Source: Methanosarcina thermophila TM-1
GTDB taxonomy: Archaea > Halobacteriota > Methanosarcinia > Methanosarcinales > Methanosarcinaceae
Direction of reading: 5' to 3'
DNA: 64,000 bases
NCBI RefSeq assembly: GCF_000969885.1
Contig: NZ_CP009501.1
Coordinates: 372,001-436,000, forward strand
Positions 34,810 to 46,965 of the stretch are shown piece after piece. Each line of letters starts with the position of its first letter. Position 1 is the first letter of the stretch. A program made the translations under genes and the position numbers. The notes below the pieces were generated by a model that made no database searches, was not told the DNA's origin, and saw only the letters and a program-made list of their open reading frames with translations.

Positions 34810-35166
34810 TTATTCAGTAACATGCTCCAGCCCTTGAGCGAATAATTTCTCAATATGATCATCAGCCAGGGAATAAAACATGATTTTACCTTCTCGCCGA
34901 AACTTAACAAGGCGTAGAGTCCTGAGGGTTTTAAGCTGATGAGATACTGCTGATTCAGAAATACCAATAACAGCTGCAAGGTCGCAAACACAAAGTTCTC
35001 TGGTCATTAAGGAAAACAATATTTTCACTCTTGTAGGATCTCCCAGAGCCTTGAACAGTTCTGCCAGCGAAACAGCTATATCTTCGCTAAATAGAGCCTC
35101 TCTTACTGCTTTTACTGCTTCATCGTGTATACAATTGATTTCACACCTGTCTTCTAATTCGACCAC
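34810..35166 (-). CDS. ArsR/SmtB family metal-sensing repressor
   Basis: A 118-residue winged-helix repressor. It has both known metal sites of the family. The alpha-3N type is built from ELCVCDLA together with N-terminal cysteines (CEINC). The alpha-5 type is DDHIEKLFAQGLEHVTE, like the Zn site of SmtB. The recognition helix is ISESAVSHQLKTLRTLRLV. It should release its operator on binding Cd/Pb or Zn and so induce the ATPase gene it precedes. The GTG start is preceded by GGAGAG. Confidence 0.93.
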   Translation of the reverse strand: MVELEDRCEINCIHDEAVKAVREALFSEDIAVSLAELFKALGDPTRVKILFSLMTRELCVCDLAAVIGISESAVSHQLKTLRTLRLVKFRREGKIMFYSLADDHIEKLFAQGLEHVTE

Positions 35167-35569: not shown

Positions 35570-36514
35570 TTAACGTGCTGCCTGTTTTTTGAATTTATCC
35601 CAGCTCCAGGGCTCGTCGAGGATATTAACGTTAACTTTTTCTATCCCTTCAGCGCTCAGGACTTTTCGCCGGATCTGTTCCTTAAAGTACTCGATCATGG
35701 GGCAGGAGCTAGTCGTCAATACAAGGTTTACATCTACATTTGGACCATCTACGATAACTTCCTTGACCAGTCCCAGTTTTACGATATCCATGCCTACTCC
35801 AGGGTCAATCACTTCTTTTAGTAGGGAATAGATTTGCTCGTCCTTAAGTGCTGCTTCCTGTGTAGTTTTCTCCTCTCTGGAGATTGACTTCTCATGTGCT
35901 TTGAACTGGTCTTCTAATCTGCTCAACCGGTCGAGTATCTGTCCTATAACAATAAGTCCAGGATCAGGAAGCTTATCATGATCCAGCTGCCCTGCTGAAG
36001 GGGATGGACGCGGCTCCGCAATCCTTGCAGGTACTCCCACAACCGTAGCTCCGGGAGGGACTGGTCGGATAACAACCGAGCCAGCACCTATTTTTGCGCC
36101 TCTGCCAACAGTAATTGGTCCGAGCACGGTTGCTCCTGAACCGATAACCACGTCATTTTCAATAGTAGGGTGGCGTTTTTTCTTTTCCAGAGTTGTTCCG
36201 CCCAGCACAACCCCCATGTATATAAGAACATCATCTCCGACTTCAGCTGTTTCCCCGATGACTACCCCGGACCCATGATCTATAAAAACTCGCCTTCCAA
36301 GCTTTGCTCCGGGATGGATCTCAATACCTGTCAACATTCTGGAGATGTGAGAGAGCAAACGAGCCAGAAAATAGAAGTGTCTATTCCAGAGCGAGTGGGA
36401 TACCCTGTGTATCCAGATAGCATGCAAGCCCGGATAACAGCAGATAACCTCAAGCGTAGACCTTGCTGCCGGGTCTTTTTTAAAAACAGTCTCTATATCT
36501 TCTCTGATTCTCAT
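35570..36514 (-). CDS. cysE: serine O-acetyltransferase fused to a MIP18/DUF59 domain
   Basis: The N-terminal 200 residues are CysE: a helical region ([38 protein letters not shown]) followed by a left-handed hexapeptide helix with catalytic [27 protein letters not shown]. It makes O-acetylserine for CysK. After a linker (about 200-235) comes a complete DUF59 domain ([23 protein letters not shown] ... [20 protein letters not shown]), the family of SufT/PaaD/MIP18 proteins that serve Fe-S maturation. A CysE-DUF59 fusion is unusual. ATG at 36514 has GGAAG seven bases upstream. Extension to TTG 36619 would overlap cysK by 8 bp. Confidence 0.9.
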
Positions 36515-36611
36515 TAGTAGTCTTCCGATGTAAGTCCTCATATCAGTCAGCCAGCTGTCCGACGTATGAATAAACCCTTGCCGAGATTTCAGTTTCACAG
36601 TTGCCAGTAAA

Positions 36612-37538
36612 TCAGTCAAACAGGTCAGTGCTCAAATAACGCTCTCCCGTATCCGGCAGAATTACAACAATCGTCTTTCCGCGCATTTCTTCTCTGGATG
36701 CGACCTGAAGTGCAGCCCAGGTAGCAGCCCCTGAAGATATCCCTGCAAGAATACCTTCTTCCTTTGCCAGCCTTCGGGCTGTGGCAGCGGCTTCATCTCC
36801 TGTAACTTTGATAATTTCATCAATCAGCTCAAGCTGGAGAACATCAGGAACAAAACCTGCACCGATTCCCTGGATCCTGTGCGGGCCAGGGCTTCCTCCG
36901 CTGAGTACAGGAGATTCGGCAGGCTCGACTGCAATCGCCTTAAAAGAAGGCTTCCGTTTTTTGATAACACTGGCAATCCCTGTAATAGTTCCGCCAGTTC
37001 CCACGCCCGCTACAATAACATCGGCTTTGCCGTCAGTATCTCTCCAGATCTCTTCGGCTGTTGTCCTTCTGTGAATCTCAGGGTTTGCGGGGTTCTGGAA
37101 TTGCTGGGGTATGAAATAAAGTGCAGGATCGTCGGCAGCCATCTGTTCGGCTTTATTGACTGCCCCCCTCATTCCTTCCGCTCCCGAGGTCAGGACAAGT
37201 TCCGCTCCCAGAGCTTTAAGCAGTTTTCTTCGTTCTACAGTCATAGTTTCAGGCATAACCAGTATAAGATTGTAGCCGCGGGCAGCACAAACGCATGCAA
37301 GTGCGATGCCGGTATTGCCGCTGGTTGCTTCAATAATAGTGGTGCCTTCTTTGATTCTCCCTTCACGTTCGGCTTCTTCGATCATTGCCAGCCCTATTCT
37401 GTCCTTCACACTGCCCATGGGATTGAAGGATTCGACTTTTGCCAGCACATCCGCATGCAGTCCTTTGGTTATGCGGTTTAGCCTGACAAGAGGAGTATTG
37501 CCAATTGTCCAGGTTATATCAGAAAATATCCGACCCAT
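36612..37538 (-). CDS. cysK: O-acetylserine sulfhydrylase (cysteine synthase)
   Basis: A 308-residue PLP enzyme that turns O-acetylserine and sulfide into cysteine. The PLP lysine is in [16 protein letters not shown], the substrate loop is [24 protein letters not shown] binds phosphate, and the C-terminus has [10 protein letters not shown]. Methanosarcina species are among the few methanogens with this pathway, thought to be of bacterial origin. It is the first gene of a cysK-cysE operon. A perfect 16-bp palindrome sits next to its TATA box about 225 bp upstream. Confidence 0.95.
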
Positions 37539-37760: not shown

Positions 37761-37784
37761 ATTCACAATTGTGAATATATTTAA
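37761..37784 (-). promoter_or_regulatory. cysK promoter with CAATTG-centred operator (site A)
   Basis: ATTCACAATTGTGAAT (37761-37776) is a perfect 16-bp palindrome. On the minus strand it directly follows a TATA-like AAATATATT (about 37783-37775), where a repressor would block transcription. The same palindrome recurs at iscS and tRNA-Cys and in degenerate form at the regulator gene. Confidence 0.75.
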
Positions 37785-37928: not shown

Positions 37929-38342
37929 TCATTCCTCTGAATTTTCTTTAGAATCTTCTTTATCATCTGTTTGGTTTTCTGCTTTATCGTCTGCTTTATC
38001 TTCTGCTTTATTATCTGTTTGCTCTTCGGCGCAGCCGGTATTGCACTTTTTTTCTATCCCACGGGCACTTACGCAGATTTCACAGATCCTTACTACAAAA
38101 TCAGAAACCTTATTGTCGATCAGATCCTGAGCAAGCTTTTCAATTAACTCCTTCGTCTCGCCCTGAAATTCAATCCTGTATCCTCTTTTTCCTGAGATAT
38201 ACTGGGAAACTGCCGATGGAGCAATCCCAAGCAGCTTTGCTGCTGTTGCCTGTGATTGTCCTCTCTTTACAAGTTCGATTGCGAGACTGGCTCTTATTGC
38301 GGGAACCAGATCCCACACAATCTTCTGACACGGAGTTTCCAT
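37929..38342 (-). CDS. HTH (XRE/COG2522-like) regulator with C-terminal four-cysteine motif
   Basis: A 137-residue protein. A helix-turn-helix (VKRGQSQATAAKLLGIAPSAVSQYISGKRG, about 25-55) is followed by a helical segment and CEIC-x11-CNTGC, four cysteines that could hold an Fe-S cluster or zinc. The last 30 residues are an acidic D/E/K-rich tail. ATG at 38342 has GGATGA five bases upstream and is preferred over ATG 38351. The gene lies between cysK and iscS, divergent from iscS. A degenerate copy of the palindrome found at its neighbours is in its own promoter. I infer that it is an autoregulated sensor of cysteine or Fe-S status. Confidence 0.85.
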   Translation of the reverse strand: METPCQKIVWDLVPAIRASLAIELVKRGQSQATAAKLLGIAPSAVSQYISGKRGYRIEFQGETKELIEKLAQDLIDNKVSDFVVRICEICVSARGIEKKCNTGCAEEQTDNKAEDKADDKAENQTDDKEDSKENSEE

Positions 38343-38363
38343 ATTTATCATCCTTTTTTAATG

Positions 38364-38404
38364 TTTACAATTGAGAAGATATAGCTTAAGTACATATATT
38401 TATT
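38364..38404 (-). promoter_or_regulatory. regulator promoter with degenerate operator (site B)
   Basis: On the minus strand a TATA-like AATAAATATATG (about 38404-38393) is followed by a 14-bp site (plus strand TTTACAATTGAGAA, 38364-38377) that keeps the CAATTG core and matches the consensus palindrome at 12 of 14 positions. It lies about 22 bp before the start codon and suggests autoregulation. Confidence 0.55.
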
Positions 38405-38561: not shown

Positions 38562-38617
38562 CATATATGATAAAACTTAAATAGTCACAATTGTTATGGC
38601 TATTCACAATTGTGAAG
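38562..38617 (+). promoter_or_regulatory. iscS promoter with tandem operators (sites C1, C2)
   Basis: Downstream of a TATA-like CATATATGA (38562-38570) are GTCACAATTGTTA (38584-38596) and TTCACAATTGTGAA (38603-38616). Their centres are 19 bp apart. The second abuts the Shine-Dalgarno AAGGTGA of iscS (38615-38621), so a bound repressor would cover both the transcription start and the leader. Confidence 0.75.
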
Positions 38618-38625
38618 GTGAAAAT

Positions 38626-39810
38626 GTGAGCACTGAAAATAAGGCAGTTTACATGGACAACTCGGCTACAACTCCTGTAAGAAAAGAGGTTGTCGAAGCG
38701 ATGCTTCCTTATATGACCGAGAATTTTGGAAACCCTTCTTCAATTTATGAGATCGGAAAAACCTCAAAACATGCAATAAACTTGGCAAGGAAAAAGGTTG
38801 CTGATGCGCTCGGGGCTGAAGAAAACGAGATTTATTTCACATCCGGGGGCACGGAATCCGATAACTGGGCAATTAAGGGAATAGCCTTTGCAAACCGGGA
38901 CAAAGGAAAACACATTATCACCTCTTCTATTGAACACCATGCAGTGCTGCATACCTGCGCCTGGCTGGAAGGGCAGGGCTTTGAGGTAACCTACCTGCCT
39001 GTGGACAAATACGGAATGGTGTCTCCTGACGAACTCAGAAAAGCAATTCGGGATGACACCATCCTTATTTCCATAATGTTTGCAAACAACGAAATCGGGA
39101 CAATCCAGCCTATAAAGGAAATCGGAGAAATCGCTAAAGAGAATCAGATATATTTCCATACGGATGCGGTGCAGGCAATAGGTCATGTCCCTATAGATGT
39201 CAAAAAGCTCAATATTGATCTTCTTTCTCTTTCGGGACATAAGTTCGAAGGTCCAAAAGGTTGTGGAGCTCTCTACATCCGGAAAGGGGTGAAAATAGAT
39301 CCTCTTCTACACGGCGGGGCACAGGAAAGAAAGCGTAGGGCAGGAACCGAAAATGTCCCTGGCATTGTTGGTCTTGGAAAAGCTATAGAGCTTGCAACGG
39401 CTGAAATCGAGGAATCAAACAGAACCCTGCTGAAACTTAGAGATCGCCTTATCGAAGGGCTTTTGAAAATCCCGAAAACCCATCTTAACGGGCATCCTAC
39501 ACAGAGGCTTGCAAACAACGTAAATGTCACATTCGAGTATATAGAGGGCGAATCGCTCCTGCTGCTGTTGAACGCGAAAGGAATCTATGCATCTACGGGA
39601 AGCGCATGTAATTCTTCTTCTCTTGAACCCTCGCATGTACTTACAGCCTGCGGAGTCCCGCACGAAATTATTCATGGCTCGCTAAGACTCAGTCTTGGAA
39701 GAATGAATACCAGCGAAGATGTGGACAGGGTACTTGAAGTTGTACCTGAGATTGTGCAAAAGCTCAGGAATATGTCTCCACTGACTCCGAAAGAGTACAG
39801 GACTCTTTGA
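38626..39810 (+). CDS. iscS: cysteine desulfurase IscS/NifS
   Basis: A 394-residue PLP enzyme that supplies sulfur for Fe-S clusters. It shows VYMDNSATTPVRKEV, the Schiff-base Lys in SLSGHKFEGPKGCGALY, and the catalytic Cys in YASTGSACNSSSLEPSHVL, which is the IscS type with a mobile loop. I place the start at GTG 38626, with GGTGA four to five bases upstream. The in-frame ATG at 38596 lies inside the operator region and would add ten residues that do not belong to the family. It is followed by iscU and nadA. Confidence 0.95.
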   Translation: MSTENKAVYMDNSATTPVRKEVVEAMLPYMTENFGNPSSIYEIGKTSKHAINLARKKVADALGAEENEIYFTSGGTESDNWAIKGIAFANRDKGKHIITSSIEHHAVLHTCAWLEGQGFEVTYLPVDKYGMVSPDELRKAIRDDTILISIMFANNEIGTIQPIKEIGEIAKENQIYFHTDAVQAIGHVPIDVKKLNIDLLSLSGHKFEGPKGCGALYIRKGVKIDPLLHGGAQERKRRAGTENVPGIVGLGKAIELATAEIEESNRTLLKLRDRLIEGLLKIPKTHLNGHPTQRLANNVNVTFEYIEGESLLLLLNAKGIYASTGSACNSSSLEPSHVLTACGVPHEIIHGSLRLSLGRMNTSEDVDRVLEVVPEIVQKLRNMSPLTPKEYRTL

Positions 39811-39957: not shown

Positions 39958-40347
39958 ATGGACTACAGCCTTAAAGTAATGGATCATTTCTCAAATCCGA
40001 GAAACATGGGAATCATTGAAGACAGTGATGGAGTAGGAGAGGTCGGAAACGCGAAGTGTGGAGACATAATGAAAATTTATCTCAAAGTTGAGGATAACCG
40101 GATTGTGGATGTGAAGTTCCAGACCTTCGGATGCGGAGCTGCGATTGCGTCAAGCAGTATGGCGACCGAACTTATTAAAGGAAAAACGCTGGAGGAAGCC
40201 TGGAAACTTTCAAACAAAGCTGTTGCCGAGGCTCTTGACGGACTTCCTCCAATAAAGATGCACTGTTCAATGCTTGCAGAAGAGGCGATCCACGCGGCTA
40301 TTAACGATTATCTCAGGAAAAAGGGACTTGAGCCGTGGGATGACTGA
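39958..40347 (+). CDS. iscU: Fe-S cluster scaffold IscU
   Basis: A 129-residue IscU-type scaffold with the three cluster-ligand cysteines in their normal contexts: GNAKCGDIMKIYL, TFGCGAAIASSSMATEL and KMHCSMLAEEAIHAAI. It assembles Fe-S clusters with sulfur from IscS. GGAGG lies just upstream of the ATG. The 147-bp gap from iscS contains a short direct repeat (ATTGAGAGAAYAGA twice). nadA starts 56 bp after it. Confidence 0.96.
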   Translation: MDYSLKVMDHFSNPRNMGIIEDSDGVGEVGNAKCGDIMKIYLKVEDNRIVDVKFQTFGCGAAIASSSMATELIKGKTLEEAWKLSNKAVAEALDGLPPIKMHCSMLAEEAIHAAINDYLRKKGLEPWDD

Positions 40348-40403: not shown

Positions 40404-41318
40404 ATGGAAAACGAGTTACTTATAGAAGAAATAAAAAAACTTAAAGCCGAAAGGAATGCTGTCATTCTTTCTCACTTTTACACCAGGCGTGAAGTTCAGG
40501 AAGTTGCGGACTTTGTCGGGGATTCTCTTTCCCTTTGCAAAGCCGCAGTTGATTCAAAAGCCGATATTATAGTCTTTGCAGGGGTTCACTTCATGGCAGA
40601 ATCGGCATCAATAATTTCCCCTGACAAAGTGGTGCTCTTACCTGTACCCGATGCAGGCTGCCCTATGGCGGATATGATAACTGCGGAGGCTCTGCGGGAT
40701 GCAAAAGAGAAACATCCCGATGCTGCAGTCGTGTGCTATGTGAACAGTTCGGCGGCAGTTAAAGCCGAATCTGATATCTGCTGCACTTCAGCAAATGCTA
40801 TAAACGTGGTAAATTCACTTGAAAGCCAGGAGGTTCTTTTTGTTCCTGATAAAAACCTGGGTGTTTTCGTAGCTCTTCATACCGACAAGAAGATACATCT
40901 CTGGCCTGGATTTTGCCATGTTCACGAGAACATCAGTGATAAGGACATAGAAGAATTAAAAAAACTGCATCCAGATGCTGAATTCCTGGCACACCCTGAG
41001 TGTAGGCCTGAAGTCCTGAGCTATGCAAACGGGATTTTCAGTACTTCAGGAATTATAAAAGAGGTGGAAAGGTCAGGTTCCACGGAATTCATAATAGGAA
41101 CCGAAAGGGAAATTGTTCGAAGCCTGAGAAGGAAATATCCGGATAAGAAATTCTATCCTGCATCCGAGAAAGCTTCTTGCTACAATATGAAGAAAATCAC
41201 CCTCGAAACTGTCCTGAATAGTCTGCAAAACATGGAATATGTAATTCGCGTTCCGGAACACATAAGGGTGAAAGCAAGAAAAGCCCTGAACAGGATGCTT
41301 GAGATCAGCGGGAATTAA
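40404..41318 (+). CDS. nadA: quinolinate synthase
   Basis: The 304-residue NadA condenses iminoaspartate with dihydroxyacetone phosphate to quinolinate for NAD synthesis and needs a 4Fe-4S cluster. It shows ILSHFYTRREVQEVADFVGDSLSL, FAGVHFMAESASI, AGCPMADMI (first cluster Cys), WPGFCHVHE (second), HPECRPEV and SEKASCYNMKKITLETV (third). Its place behind iscS-iscU fits its demand for an oxygen-sensitive cluster. Confidence 0.95.
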   Translation: MENELLIEEIKKLKAERNAVILSHFYTRREVQEVADFVGDSLSLCKAAVDSKADIIVFAGVHFMAESASIISPDKVVLLPVPDAGCPMADMITAEALRDAKEKHPDAAVVCYVNSSAAVKAESDICCTSANAINVVNSLESQEVLFVPDKNLGVFVALHTDKKIHLWPGFCHVHENISDKDIEELKKLHPDAEFLAHPECRPEVLSYANGIFSTSGIIKEVERSGSTEFIIGTEREIVRSLRRKYPDKKFYPASEKASCYNMKKITLETVLNSLQNMEYVIRVPEHIRVKARKALNRMLEISGN

Positions 41319-41440: not shown

Positions 41441-41488
41441 TTTTTATACTAGCATCACGATTGTGAAGATATAATCACAATTGTGAAC
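41441..41488 (+). promoter_or_regulatory. tRNA-Cys promoter with tandem operators (sites D1, D2)
   Basis: A TATA-like TTTTTATAC (41441-41449) is followed by ATCACGATTGTGAAG (41454-41468) and AATCACAATTGTGAAC (41473-41488), with centres 20 bp apart. The sites cover the expected transcription start of the tRNA that begins at 41508. Confidence 0.75.
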
Positions 41489-41507
41489 ATGTGCAAAAAC
41501 CATAAGT

Positions 41508-41579
41508 GTCAGGATGGCAGAGTGGTTATGCTTCCGGCTGCAACCCGGAATTACGTGAGTTCGATTCTCACTCCTGACT
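41508..41579 (+). tRNA. tRNA-Cys (GCA)
   Basis: A 72-nt cloverleaf. The acceptor stem pairs GTCAGGA with TCCTGAC, the anticodon arm is TCCGG-CTGCAAC-CCGGA with anticodon GCA, and the T arm contains the usual GTTCGATTC. The discriminator base is U, as in tRNA-Cys generally. CCA is not encoded. Two palindromic operators stand in its promoter, and metY follows 83 bp downstream. Confidence 0.96.
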
Positions 41580-41656: not shown

Positions 41657-43006
<1,350 letters not shown>

Positions 43007-43008
43007 TC

Positions 43009-44568
43009 ATGGAGTTCTCAGCTCAGAATTCTTCTTATAATAACTATTTTTCTGGAAAAAAAGGCCAGAGCCTGGGAATAGTCCGTTCAATGAACTATGA
43101 AATTCCAGGGATTTTCAGGCTTGAGAGTGGAAAAACCCTGACCCATGTCAGGATTGAGTACGAGATGTACGGGAAGATGAACGAGGATAAGAGCAATGTC
43201 ATCCTGATATGTCATGCCCTTACCGGGGACGCCCATGCTGCCGGATTTCATGAAGGCGACAAAAAGCCTGGCTGGTGGGATATCGTAATCGGTCCGAATA
43301 AAGCTTTTGATACTGAAAAATATTGTATTATCTGTTCAAATGTAATCGGGGGATGCAAAGGCTCTACAGGTCCTTCTTCCATTAACCCTGAGACTGGGAA
43401 ACCCTACGGCATCTCTTTTCCCATAATCACCATAGCAGACATGGTAAACGCCCAGAAGAAACTTATCGAGCATCTTGGAGTAAAACAGCTTTATGCAGTT
43501 GCAGGCGGCTCAATGGGCGGCATGCAGGTGCTTCAATGGACTGTCAGCTACCCTGAAATGGTAAAGAAGGCAATAGCAATCGCAACAACCGCGTCCACGA
43601 CTCCGCAGCAGATTGCGTTTGGGGCAATAGGTAGGAAAGCCATAACTGACGACCCAAAATGGAATGGGGGGGATTATTACGGAAAGGAAATTCCTGCACA
43701 GGGTCTTGCACTTGCCCGTATGATAGGCCACATCACATACTTAAGCGATGCTTCAATGCAAAAGAAGTTCGGGAGGGCTCAATTGGCTGAAACAGGTCAG
43801 GATCTATCAAAAATTTCTTCCGAAACTTCTTCTGAAACTTTCTCTGATAGCTTCTCGAATTTCCAAGTCGAGAGCTACCTGAATCATCAGGGTGATACTT
43901 TTACTAAGCGTTTTGATGCCAATTCTTATCTTTATATTACAAAAGCCGTGGATTTCTTTGACCTCTCAAAGAACGGATCCCTTATAGAGGGTCTTTCCGG
44001 GGTCAAAGCGAAATATCTCGTAATCGCCATAACCTCAGACTGGCTTTATCCCCCTTACCAGTCTCAGGAAATTGTTTCTGCTCTTACTGCAAACGGGGTT
44101 GATGCCAGATACGAGGAGATCAGGTCCCAGTACGGGCATGATGCTTTTCTGCTTGAGGAGGGGCAGCTCAACTACCTTATAAGGAGCTTTCTCTCACAGG
44201 TTCTTGTAAGTGACATTATGAGCCCGAATTTCTATTCCATTTCCAGAGATGAGACTCTGGAGAATGCCTCAATGCTCATGGTAAAAAAGAAAGTAAACCA
44301 TCTGCCTGTCGTATCCGAAGACGGAAAGCTTGAAGGCATAGTAACCTCCTGGGATATCACAAAAGCCGTTGCCTGCAAGATCACGGAACTGGATGAGATA
44401 ATCACTCGCGATGTAAAATATGTGTACGCAGGCGAAAAAATCGAGGTCGCCTCCTCAATAATGGAAGATTACTCGATTTCCGCGCTTCCGGTAATTGATT
44501 CAGAAAACCGGGTCATAGGCATGGTTACAAGTGAAAGCATAAGCGCCCTTATCGGAAGGTACAGTTAA
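43009..44568 (+). CDS. metX: homoserine O-acetyltransferase with C-terminal CBS pair
   Basis: A 519-residue fusion. Residues about 25-400 are the MetX alpha/beta hydrolase: CHALTGDAHAAG, GGCKGSTGPSSINPETGKPYG, the nucleophile Ser in AVAGGSMGGMQVLQW, Asp in AITSDWLYPPYQ and His in SQYGHDAFLLEEG. Residues about 400-519 are two CBS motifs (VSDIMSPNFYSISRDETLENAS and ITRDVKYVYAGEKIEVASSIM), which often bind adenosyl ligands and could give SAM/AMP feedback control. A Ser-rich insertion (around 265-300) breaks the catalytic domain. ATG 43009 overlaps the end of metY. Confidence 0.93.
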   Translation: MEFSAQNSSYNNYFSGKKGQSLGIVRSMNYEIPGIFRLESGKTLTHVRIEYEMYGKMNEDKSNVILICHALTGDAHAAGFHEGDKKPGWWDIVIGPNKAFDTEKYCIICSNVIGGCKGSTGPSSINPETGKPYGISFPIITIADMVNAQKKLIEHLGVKQLYAVAGGSMGGMQVLQWTVSYPEMVKKAIAIATTASTTPQQIAFGAIGRKAITDDPKWNGGDYYGKEIPAQGLALARMIGHITYLSDASMQKKFGRAQLAETGQDLSKISSETSSETFSDSFSNFQVESYLNHQGDTFTKRFDANSYLYITKAVDFFDLSKNGSLIEGLSGVKAKYLVIAITSDWLYPPYQSQEIVSALTANGVDARYEEIRSQYGHDAFLLEEGQLNYLIRSFLSQVLVSDIMSPNFYSISRDETLENASMLMVKKKVNHLPVVSEDGKLEGIVTSWDITKAVACKITELDEIITRDVKYVYAGEKIEVASSIMEDYSISALPVIDSENRVIGMVTSESISALIGRYS

Positions 44569-46617: not shown

Positions 46618-46965
46618 TCAATCACAGCATCTACAACTTTCCCTGAACTTTTCTAATAACTTTAAATCTTCTTTACAGATGTCGATTTTTTCTAACTCTT
46701 CATTGATAATGTTTAAAAGAAAGGGAAATTTTTGGAAAGTAGGTTCGTTAAGCCGATAATAAACCCACTGAGACTTTTTCTCAGAAGTAATGAGTCCTGC
46801 AACTTTCAGTTTATTTAAATGCCTGGATACGTTAGATTGCTTAGTACCTAAAACTGCTTCAATTTCACAGACGCATAATTCCCCGTTTCTAAGGAGATTT
46901 ATCATTCTTATTCTATTTTCATCAGCAAGTGCCTTAAGTATATGAACGATATCCACTAATACCAC
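46618..46965 (-). CDS. arsR: arsenic-responsive repressor ArsR
   Basis: A 115-residue winged-helix repressor. The As(III) site is ELCVCEIEAVLG (CxC in the alpha-3 helix), and the recognition helix follows as TKQSNVSRHLNKLKVAGLI. A C-terminal CRCCD adds three cysteines. Two GTG starts (46965 and 46956) are possible. With the first the operator palindrome ends just 3 bp before the gene, so the mRNA is nearly leaderless. It should repress acr3 and arsM until arsenite binds. Confidence 0.94.
   Translation of the reverse strand: MVLVDIVHILKALADENRIRMINLLRNGELCVCEIEAVLGTKQSNVSRHLNKLKVAGLITSEKKSQWVYYRLNEPTFQKFPFLLNIINEELEKIDICKEDLKLLEKFRESCRCCD

Follow-up and report, generated by a model that had tools for sequence, protein, structure and literature searches.

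Palindromic sites shared by a tRNA-Cys gene and sulfur metabolism genes of Methanosarcina suggest a cysteine/sulfur regulon with a candidate repressor

The two palindromes located between the TATA box and the coding region of a tRNA-Cys gene of Methanosarcina thermophila TM-1 are very likely operators of a conserved cysteine and sulfur regulon, which appears to include particular tRNA-Cys genes and to be controlled by an adjacently encoded helix-turn-helix (HTH) repressor that would bind these sites until a sulfur-related signal is lost. The cell would thereby probably adjust one tRNA-Cys jointly with its sulfur metabolism. The locus lies in a window of 64,000 nucleotides (the whole stretch of DNA analysed), corresponding to positions 372001-436000 of the single 3,127,379-base contig; positions in the feature lists are those of the window. 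The tRNA-Cys promoter is composed of the following elements:

41441-41448, + strand: TATA box TTTTTATA of the tRNA-Cys promoter, read from the sequence
41455-41466, no strand: operator 1 TCACGATTGTGA, in the interval from the TATA box to the expected start
41475-41486, no strand: operator 2 TCACAATTGTGA, directly 3' of the expected start
41508-41579, + strand: tRNA-Cys(GCA) with A37 and U73 (ARAGORN)

The arrangement of two palindromes with centres 20 bp apart, as given in the preliminary description, is exact in the sequence, with a spacer of 8 bp (AGATATAA) between the operators. Their designation as CAATTG-type holds for site 2 only, because operator 1 deviates by one mismatch from a perfect palindrome and does not contain CAATTG. 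The hexamer itself was rejected as the signal, since the window shows no enrichment of it (34 copies versus 27.7 +/- 5.4), and the 12-mer is regarded as the functional unit. Transcription of the tRNA-Cys gene should start at about 41469-41472. In most of the named Methanosarcina loci, the centre of the TATA box lies 10 bp 5' of the first operator, so that operator 1 fills the interval between TATA box and start, and operator 2 is placed just past the expected start. Promoters with a single site mostly carry it 25-32 bp 3' of the TATA box, over the expected start. Neighbouring sites are spaced by 18-21 bp in 45 of 67 close pairs (a count in which some loci were entered under two ids), and a second class shows 27-30 bp. 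As judged from the predicted starts, the sites are positioned to block initiation, and their geometry is that of repression. An interpretation of the palindromes as RNA hairpins was discarded, since operator 1, being 5' of the predicted start, would not form part of the transcript.

The same palindrome is found 5' of several functionally related transcription units in the window, namely cysK-cysE, the regulator gene, iscSU-nadA, and tRNA-Cys-metY-metX:

35570-36619, - strand: cysE, serine O-acetyltransferase with a C-terminal Fe-S assembly (PF01883) domain
36612-37538, - strand: cysK, cysteine synthase (NCBIfam TIGR01139)
37763-37774, no strand: operator TCACAATTGTGA of cysK-cysE, 225 bp 5' of the cysK start codon, beside the TATA-like TTAAATATA
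37929-38351, - strand: 140-aa helix-turn-helix protein, the proposed repressor
38365-38376, no strand: weaker operator TTACAATTGAGA, 14 bp 5' of the regulator start codon; putative autoregulation
38585-38596, no strand: iscS operator 1 TCACAATTGTTA
38604-38615, no strand: iscS operator 2 TCACAATTGTGA
38596-39810, + strand: iscS, cysteine desulfurase (NCBIfam)
39958-40347, + strand: iscU, scaffold protein (NCBIfam TIGR03419)
40404-41318, + strand: nadA, quinolinate synthase (NCBIfam)
41663-43006, + strand: metY-type O-acetylhomoserine sulfhydrylase (NCBIfam TIGR01326)
43003-44568, + strand: metX-type homoserine O-acetyltransferase with C-terminal CBS domains

The iscS promoter indeed shares the two-site layout, as claimed before, with a spacing of 19 bp; the true start of iscS probably lies slightly downstream, because the first ATG overlaps the operators. 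The CBS pair fused to MetX represents a possible site of metabolite control. Outside the window, sites were found at a tRNA-Cys/SepCysS unit at 1002-1003 kb, at a cluster extending from a radical SAM gene to MMP16 at 1005 kb, the start of which is duplicated at 125 kb, and at a decayed second regulator-iscS copy at about 1011.3-1012.1 kb (L014 13322-14083), which has retained its operators. MMP16 has been reported to be the coenzyme M synthase (PMC12068725). The two versions of the radical SAM gene (331 and 267 aa; L013 3764-4759 and L014 7748-8551) are 0.88 Mb apart and carry the same operator-bearing promoter. Further genes preceded by sites in relatives code for 3-phosphoglycerate dehydrogenase, a ThiS-like carrier beside a PP-loop protein, a TauE-type exporter, and a CO dehydrogenase-type protein. 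Operon-internal genes are devoid of sites in the named loci (iscU, 0 of 49; cysE, 0 of 21). Judged from the predicted gene functions, the theme of the regulon is sulfur, cysteine, methionine, Fe-S clusters and coenzyme M, and it is these target genes that suggest a link between the tRNA-Cys operator and sulfur status. An exact operator at 1126646-1126657 and a one-mismatch site within a longer palindrome (ACCGTTCACAATTATGAACGGT) at 1121476-1121487 (both L015) have no obvious target gene, and a conserved 95-aa protein without Pfam match is encoded behind operators in several genomes (L012 3009-3296; L165 3386-3673).

The most likely binder of the sites is the 140-aa HTH protein. It does not reach the cut-off of any Pfam or NCBIfam family, showing weak matches to HTH_3 (slightly below the cut-off) and HTH_23 only, and a search against solved structures and folds returned nothing significant. 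Its structural model is helical up to residue 97 and followed by a disordered tail. Four cysteines (C8, C90, C93, and C103) show little or no variation among the orthologs and may form a metal, cluster or thiol site. In L142, the regulator ortholog shares a single open frame with a PP-loop protein that, by eye, resembles LarE-type sulfur transferases. In the mechanism we propose, the HTH protein, probably a dimer, would bind as dimer pairs 18-21 bp apart on one face of the DNA, possibly cooperatively. Occupying the DNA between TATA box and start and just past the start, it would block transcription of tRNA-Cys-metY-metX, and the same repressor would block its own gene along with iscSU-nadA, cysKE, and the tRNA-Cys/SepCysS unit. 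The repressor would be released when a sulfur-related signal is lost, be it cysteine, sulfide, or an Fe-S cluster on the conserved cysteines, whereupon one tRNA-Cys isoacceptor would rise together with the cysteine-making enzymes, with the ordinary tRNA-Cys genes staying constitutive.

The nature of the signal is the point at which an alternative survives best. An IscR-like role, with Fe-S cluster or iron status sensed instead of cysteine or sulfide, is a realistic if less favoured possibility: iscSU and nadA, which codes for an Fe-S enzyme, are among the targets, and the four conserved cysteines could hold a cluster. However, most targets belong to the synthesis of cysteine, homocysteine and coenzyme M, the cysteines could equally bind zinc or serve as thiols, and the tail carrying C103 is not confidently modelled. 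Such a signal would in any case be compatible with the repressor model.

The genome contains five tRNA-Cys genes, which differ in their upstream regions. The window copy carries two operators, and three copies (797200, 2177346, and 2177496) have none; the copy at 797200 was missed by the Rfam tRNA search and recovered by a DNA search. The expectation that the other copies lack the sites therefore applies to three of the four, but not to the copy at 1002713-1002783, which is flanked by the SepCysS gene and a degenerate tRNA-Cys and has two exact sites further upstream within its unit. The degenerate tRNA-Cys (L014 5080-5190, about 1003080-1003190) keeps a TATA box and an exact operator and is intact in the relative L164. 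No site was present at any other tRNA examined in the genome. Within Methanosarcina, 24 of the 28 tRNA-Cys genes at regulon loci have an operator with at most one mismatch no further than 100 bp away, versus 0 of 57 free-standing ones (p = 2e-17, a value that overstates the independence of these related genomes), and the four exceptions are downstream tRNAs inside operator-bearing units. The arrangement of operator and tRNA-Cys is also found in Methanomicrobiales and other Methanosarcinaceae, the genera being Methanoregula, Methanofollis, Methanocalculus, Methanococcoides, Methanolobus, and Methanohalophilus. There are three exceptions at the level of genera, one example being a housekeeping-type tRNA-Cys of Methanolobus (L319, 12699-12770), which has two one-mismatch operators and so departs from the division seen in Methanosarcina. 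The claim that the tRNA-Cys gene of the window is controlled by an operator in common with iscS is strongly supported by the conservation of the sites, the contrast to the free-standing copies, and the co-conserved regulator.

A single tRNA under operator control, as initially proposed, is supported with respect to the operator, but the window tRNA is hardly alone: it is probably the first gene of one operon with metY and metX. Accordingly, the operator at this locus may serve both tRNA-Cys and metYX, or mainly metYX. It may even be argued that the operators regulate only metY, metX and SepCysS, and that the tRNA-Cys is a passenger or leader whose level is not meant to change. This would agree with the gap of 84 bp between tRNA-Cys and metY, which is free of terminator-like runs in the window sequence, and with several relatives in which the order is operator, tRNA-Cys, SepCysS, metY, and metX. 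We consider it unlikely nevertheless, as solo units exist in the relative G023 (L176), where several tRNA-Cys genes each have a TATA box of their own and an operator lying 8-9 bp 5' of the tRNA; two of these genes are consecutive and not separated by any protein gene. Moreover, in L164 a tRNA-Cys is followed by a further operator, and in G247 (L233) a tRNA-Cys has its own operator with no regulon gene recognised close by. Even a passenger tRNA-Cys would be co-regulated anyway.

It is still less probable that a different protein binds the sites or that the regulator is an activator. The window also encodes two ArsR-type regulators (34810-35166 and 46618-46965), but these candidates are unsupported, as it is the adjacent HTH gene that co-varies with the motif. 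An ortholog of the latter is present in 26 of 27 motif-bearing genomes of the genus, the exception being a 75%-complete assembly, and the four same-genus genomes without the exact motif (G005, G006, G008, and G018) also lack the ortholog. A paralog of 37% identity was rejected as the binder, because it is present in these four motif-less genomes as well. The motif further accompanies the HTH gene as putative autoregulatory sites in other families: the Methanomicrobiales orthologs (about 58-62% identity) mostly have the exact motif 20-60 bp 5' of their own start codon. Of all 78 named regulator orthologs, 53 have a site within 220 bp. Activation is argued against by the position of the sites between TATA box and start. 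The exact motif is absent from some other-family genomes holding regulator homologs, in which either the operator has probably drifted or the homologs differ.

The exact 12-mer occurs nine times in the 3.13-Mb genome compared to about 0.3 copies expected from base composition (own arithmetic). The genomes compared are related and their motif and tRNA counts not independent, but 30 genomes of the genus contain 142 exact copies versus 12 for the reversed control; none was found in 23 genomes from other families of the same order. In 80 named loci (1.24 Mb), chosen around regulator homologs and not by motif, 120 exact copies contrast with at most one for each of 59 other palindromes of the same half-site composition. 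That the palindromes arose by chance in AT-rich DNA, as the lack of enrichment of CAATTG alone might suggest, is refuted by all of these 12-mer counts together with placement and conservation, and its probability is negligible.

The window tRNA and its orthologs unexpectedly carry A37. This base is present in 19 of the 24 operator-bearing Methanosarcina tRNA-Cys, including that of the window, and in only two of 61 without operator, both directly 5' of SepCysS (0 of 57 free-standing); the operator-bearing tRNA-Cys seen in Methanomicrobiales and the other genera have G37. For archaeal SepRS, m1G37 is described as a determinant (PMC9976931; PMC8762117; PMC5424206). Of the features expected for a SepRS substrate, the window tRNA has the GCA anticodon and U73 but not G37, and the genome encodes both CysRS and SepRS. 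The proposed rationale that the operator serves the SepRS/SepCysS pathway is not straightforward for these reasons. One may speculate, with considerable reserve, that the A37 tRNA-Cys is a dedicated isoacceptor switched on with cysteine and sulfur assimilation and, for want of m1G37, charged mainly by CysRS with free cysteine rather than by SepRS, so that the repressor would shift the coding-route balance. In Methanosarcina, the charging route might be switched in this way; outside this genus, it is simpler to regard tRNA-Cys as the carrier on which SepCysS-dependent synthesis takes place.

In bacteria, the CymR, CysB and IscR regulons rely on a DNA-binding regulator with operators 5' of genes for cysteine synthesis, desulfurase and methionine synthesis. 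The Methanosarcina regulon is similar in placing operators 5' of cysteine, desulfurase and methionine genes; it differs in that its regulator is a short HTH protein without family above cut-off and in that it includes tRNA genes. No IscR/Rrf2 family is among the Pfam or NCBIfam matches of the regulator. Archaeal sequence-specific repressors such as MsvR have operators close to the TATA box and the start, which is likewise seen here, but the 140-aa regulator matched no MsvR model. The 5,751,492-bp genome containing L150, which we take to be that of M. acetivorans, carries the operators, the regulator and the A37 tRNA-Cys. The isc2 cluster of M. acetivorans (MA2717-MA2718) is the same iscSU-nad-met gene cluster; the respective paper deals with enzyme function and does not discuss the tRNA and regulator of the locus (PMC7585200). 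That tRNA-Cys is grouped with SepCysS and several genes of sulfur metabolism, as it is here, has been described for clade VII SepCysS (PMC5424206), and the searched passages of that paper mention no operator, regulator or regulon, the string 'regulat' occurring zero times in them. A literature search, chiefly of open-access papers, yielded no published description of the regulon, and tRNA genes as specific targets of archaeal repressors were not found in the papers searched. The main texts of M. barkeri transcriptome and proteome papers on Fe and S sources contained nothing usable on the regulon genes, and a plasmid collection search gave no match. The gene-cluster association was already known, but the literature searched contained neither the operator nor the regulator, nor the division of tRNA-Cys genes into regulated and free-standing ones; we found no earlier account, for archaea, of operator control of particular tRNA-Cys jointly with sulfur genes.

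Individual tRNA genes are usually regarded as constitutive. In the present case, particular isoacceptor genes seem to belong to an amino acid biosynthesis regulon and to have operators of their own, an arrangement conserved in both Methanosarcinales and Methanomicrobiales, two methanogen orders. A regulator can be proposed, the operator is exactly defined, and M. acetivorans offers a genetically tractable host (locus beside MA2718), which makes gene-specific control of tRNA supply directly testable, and likewise the tie of tRNA supply to tRNA-dependent cysteine synthesis.
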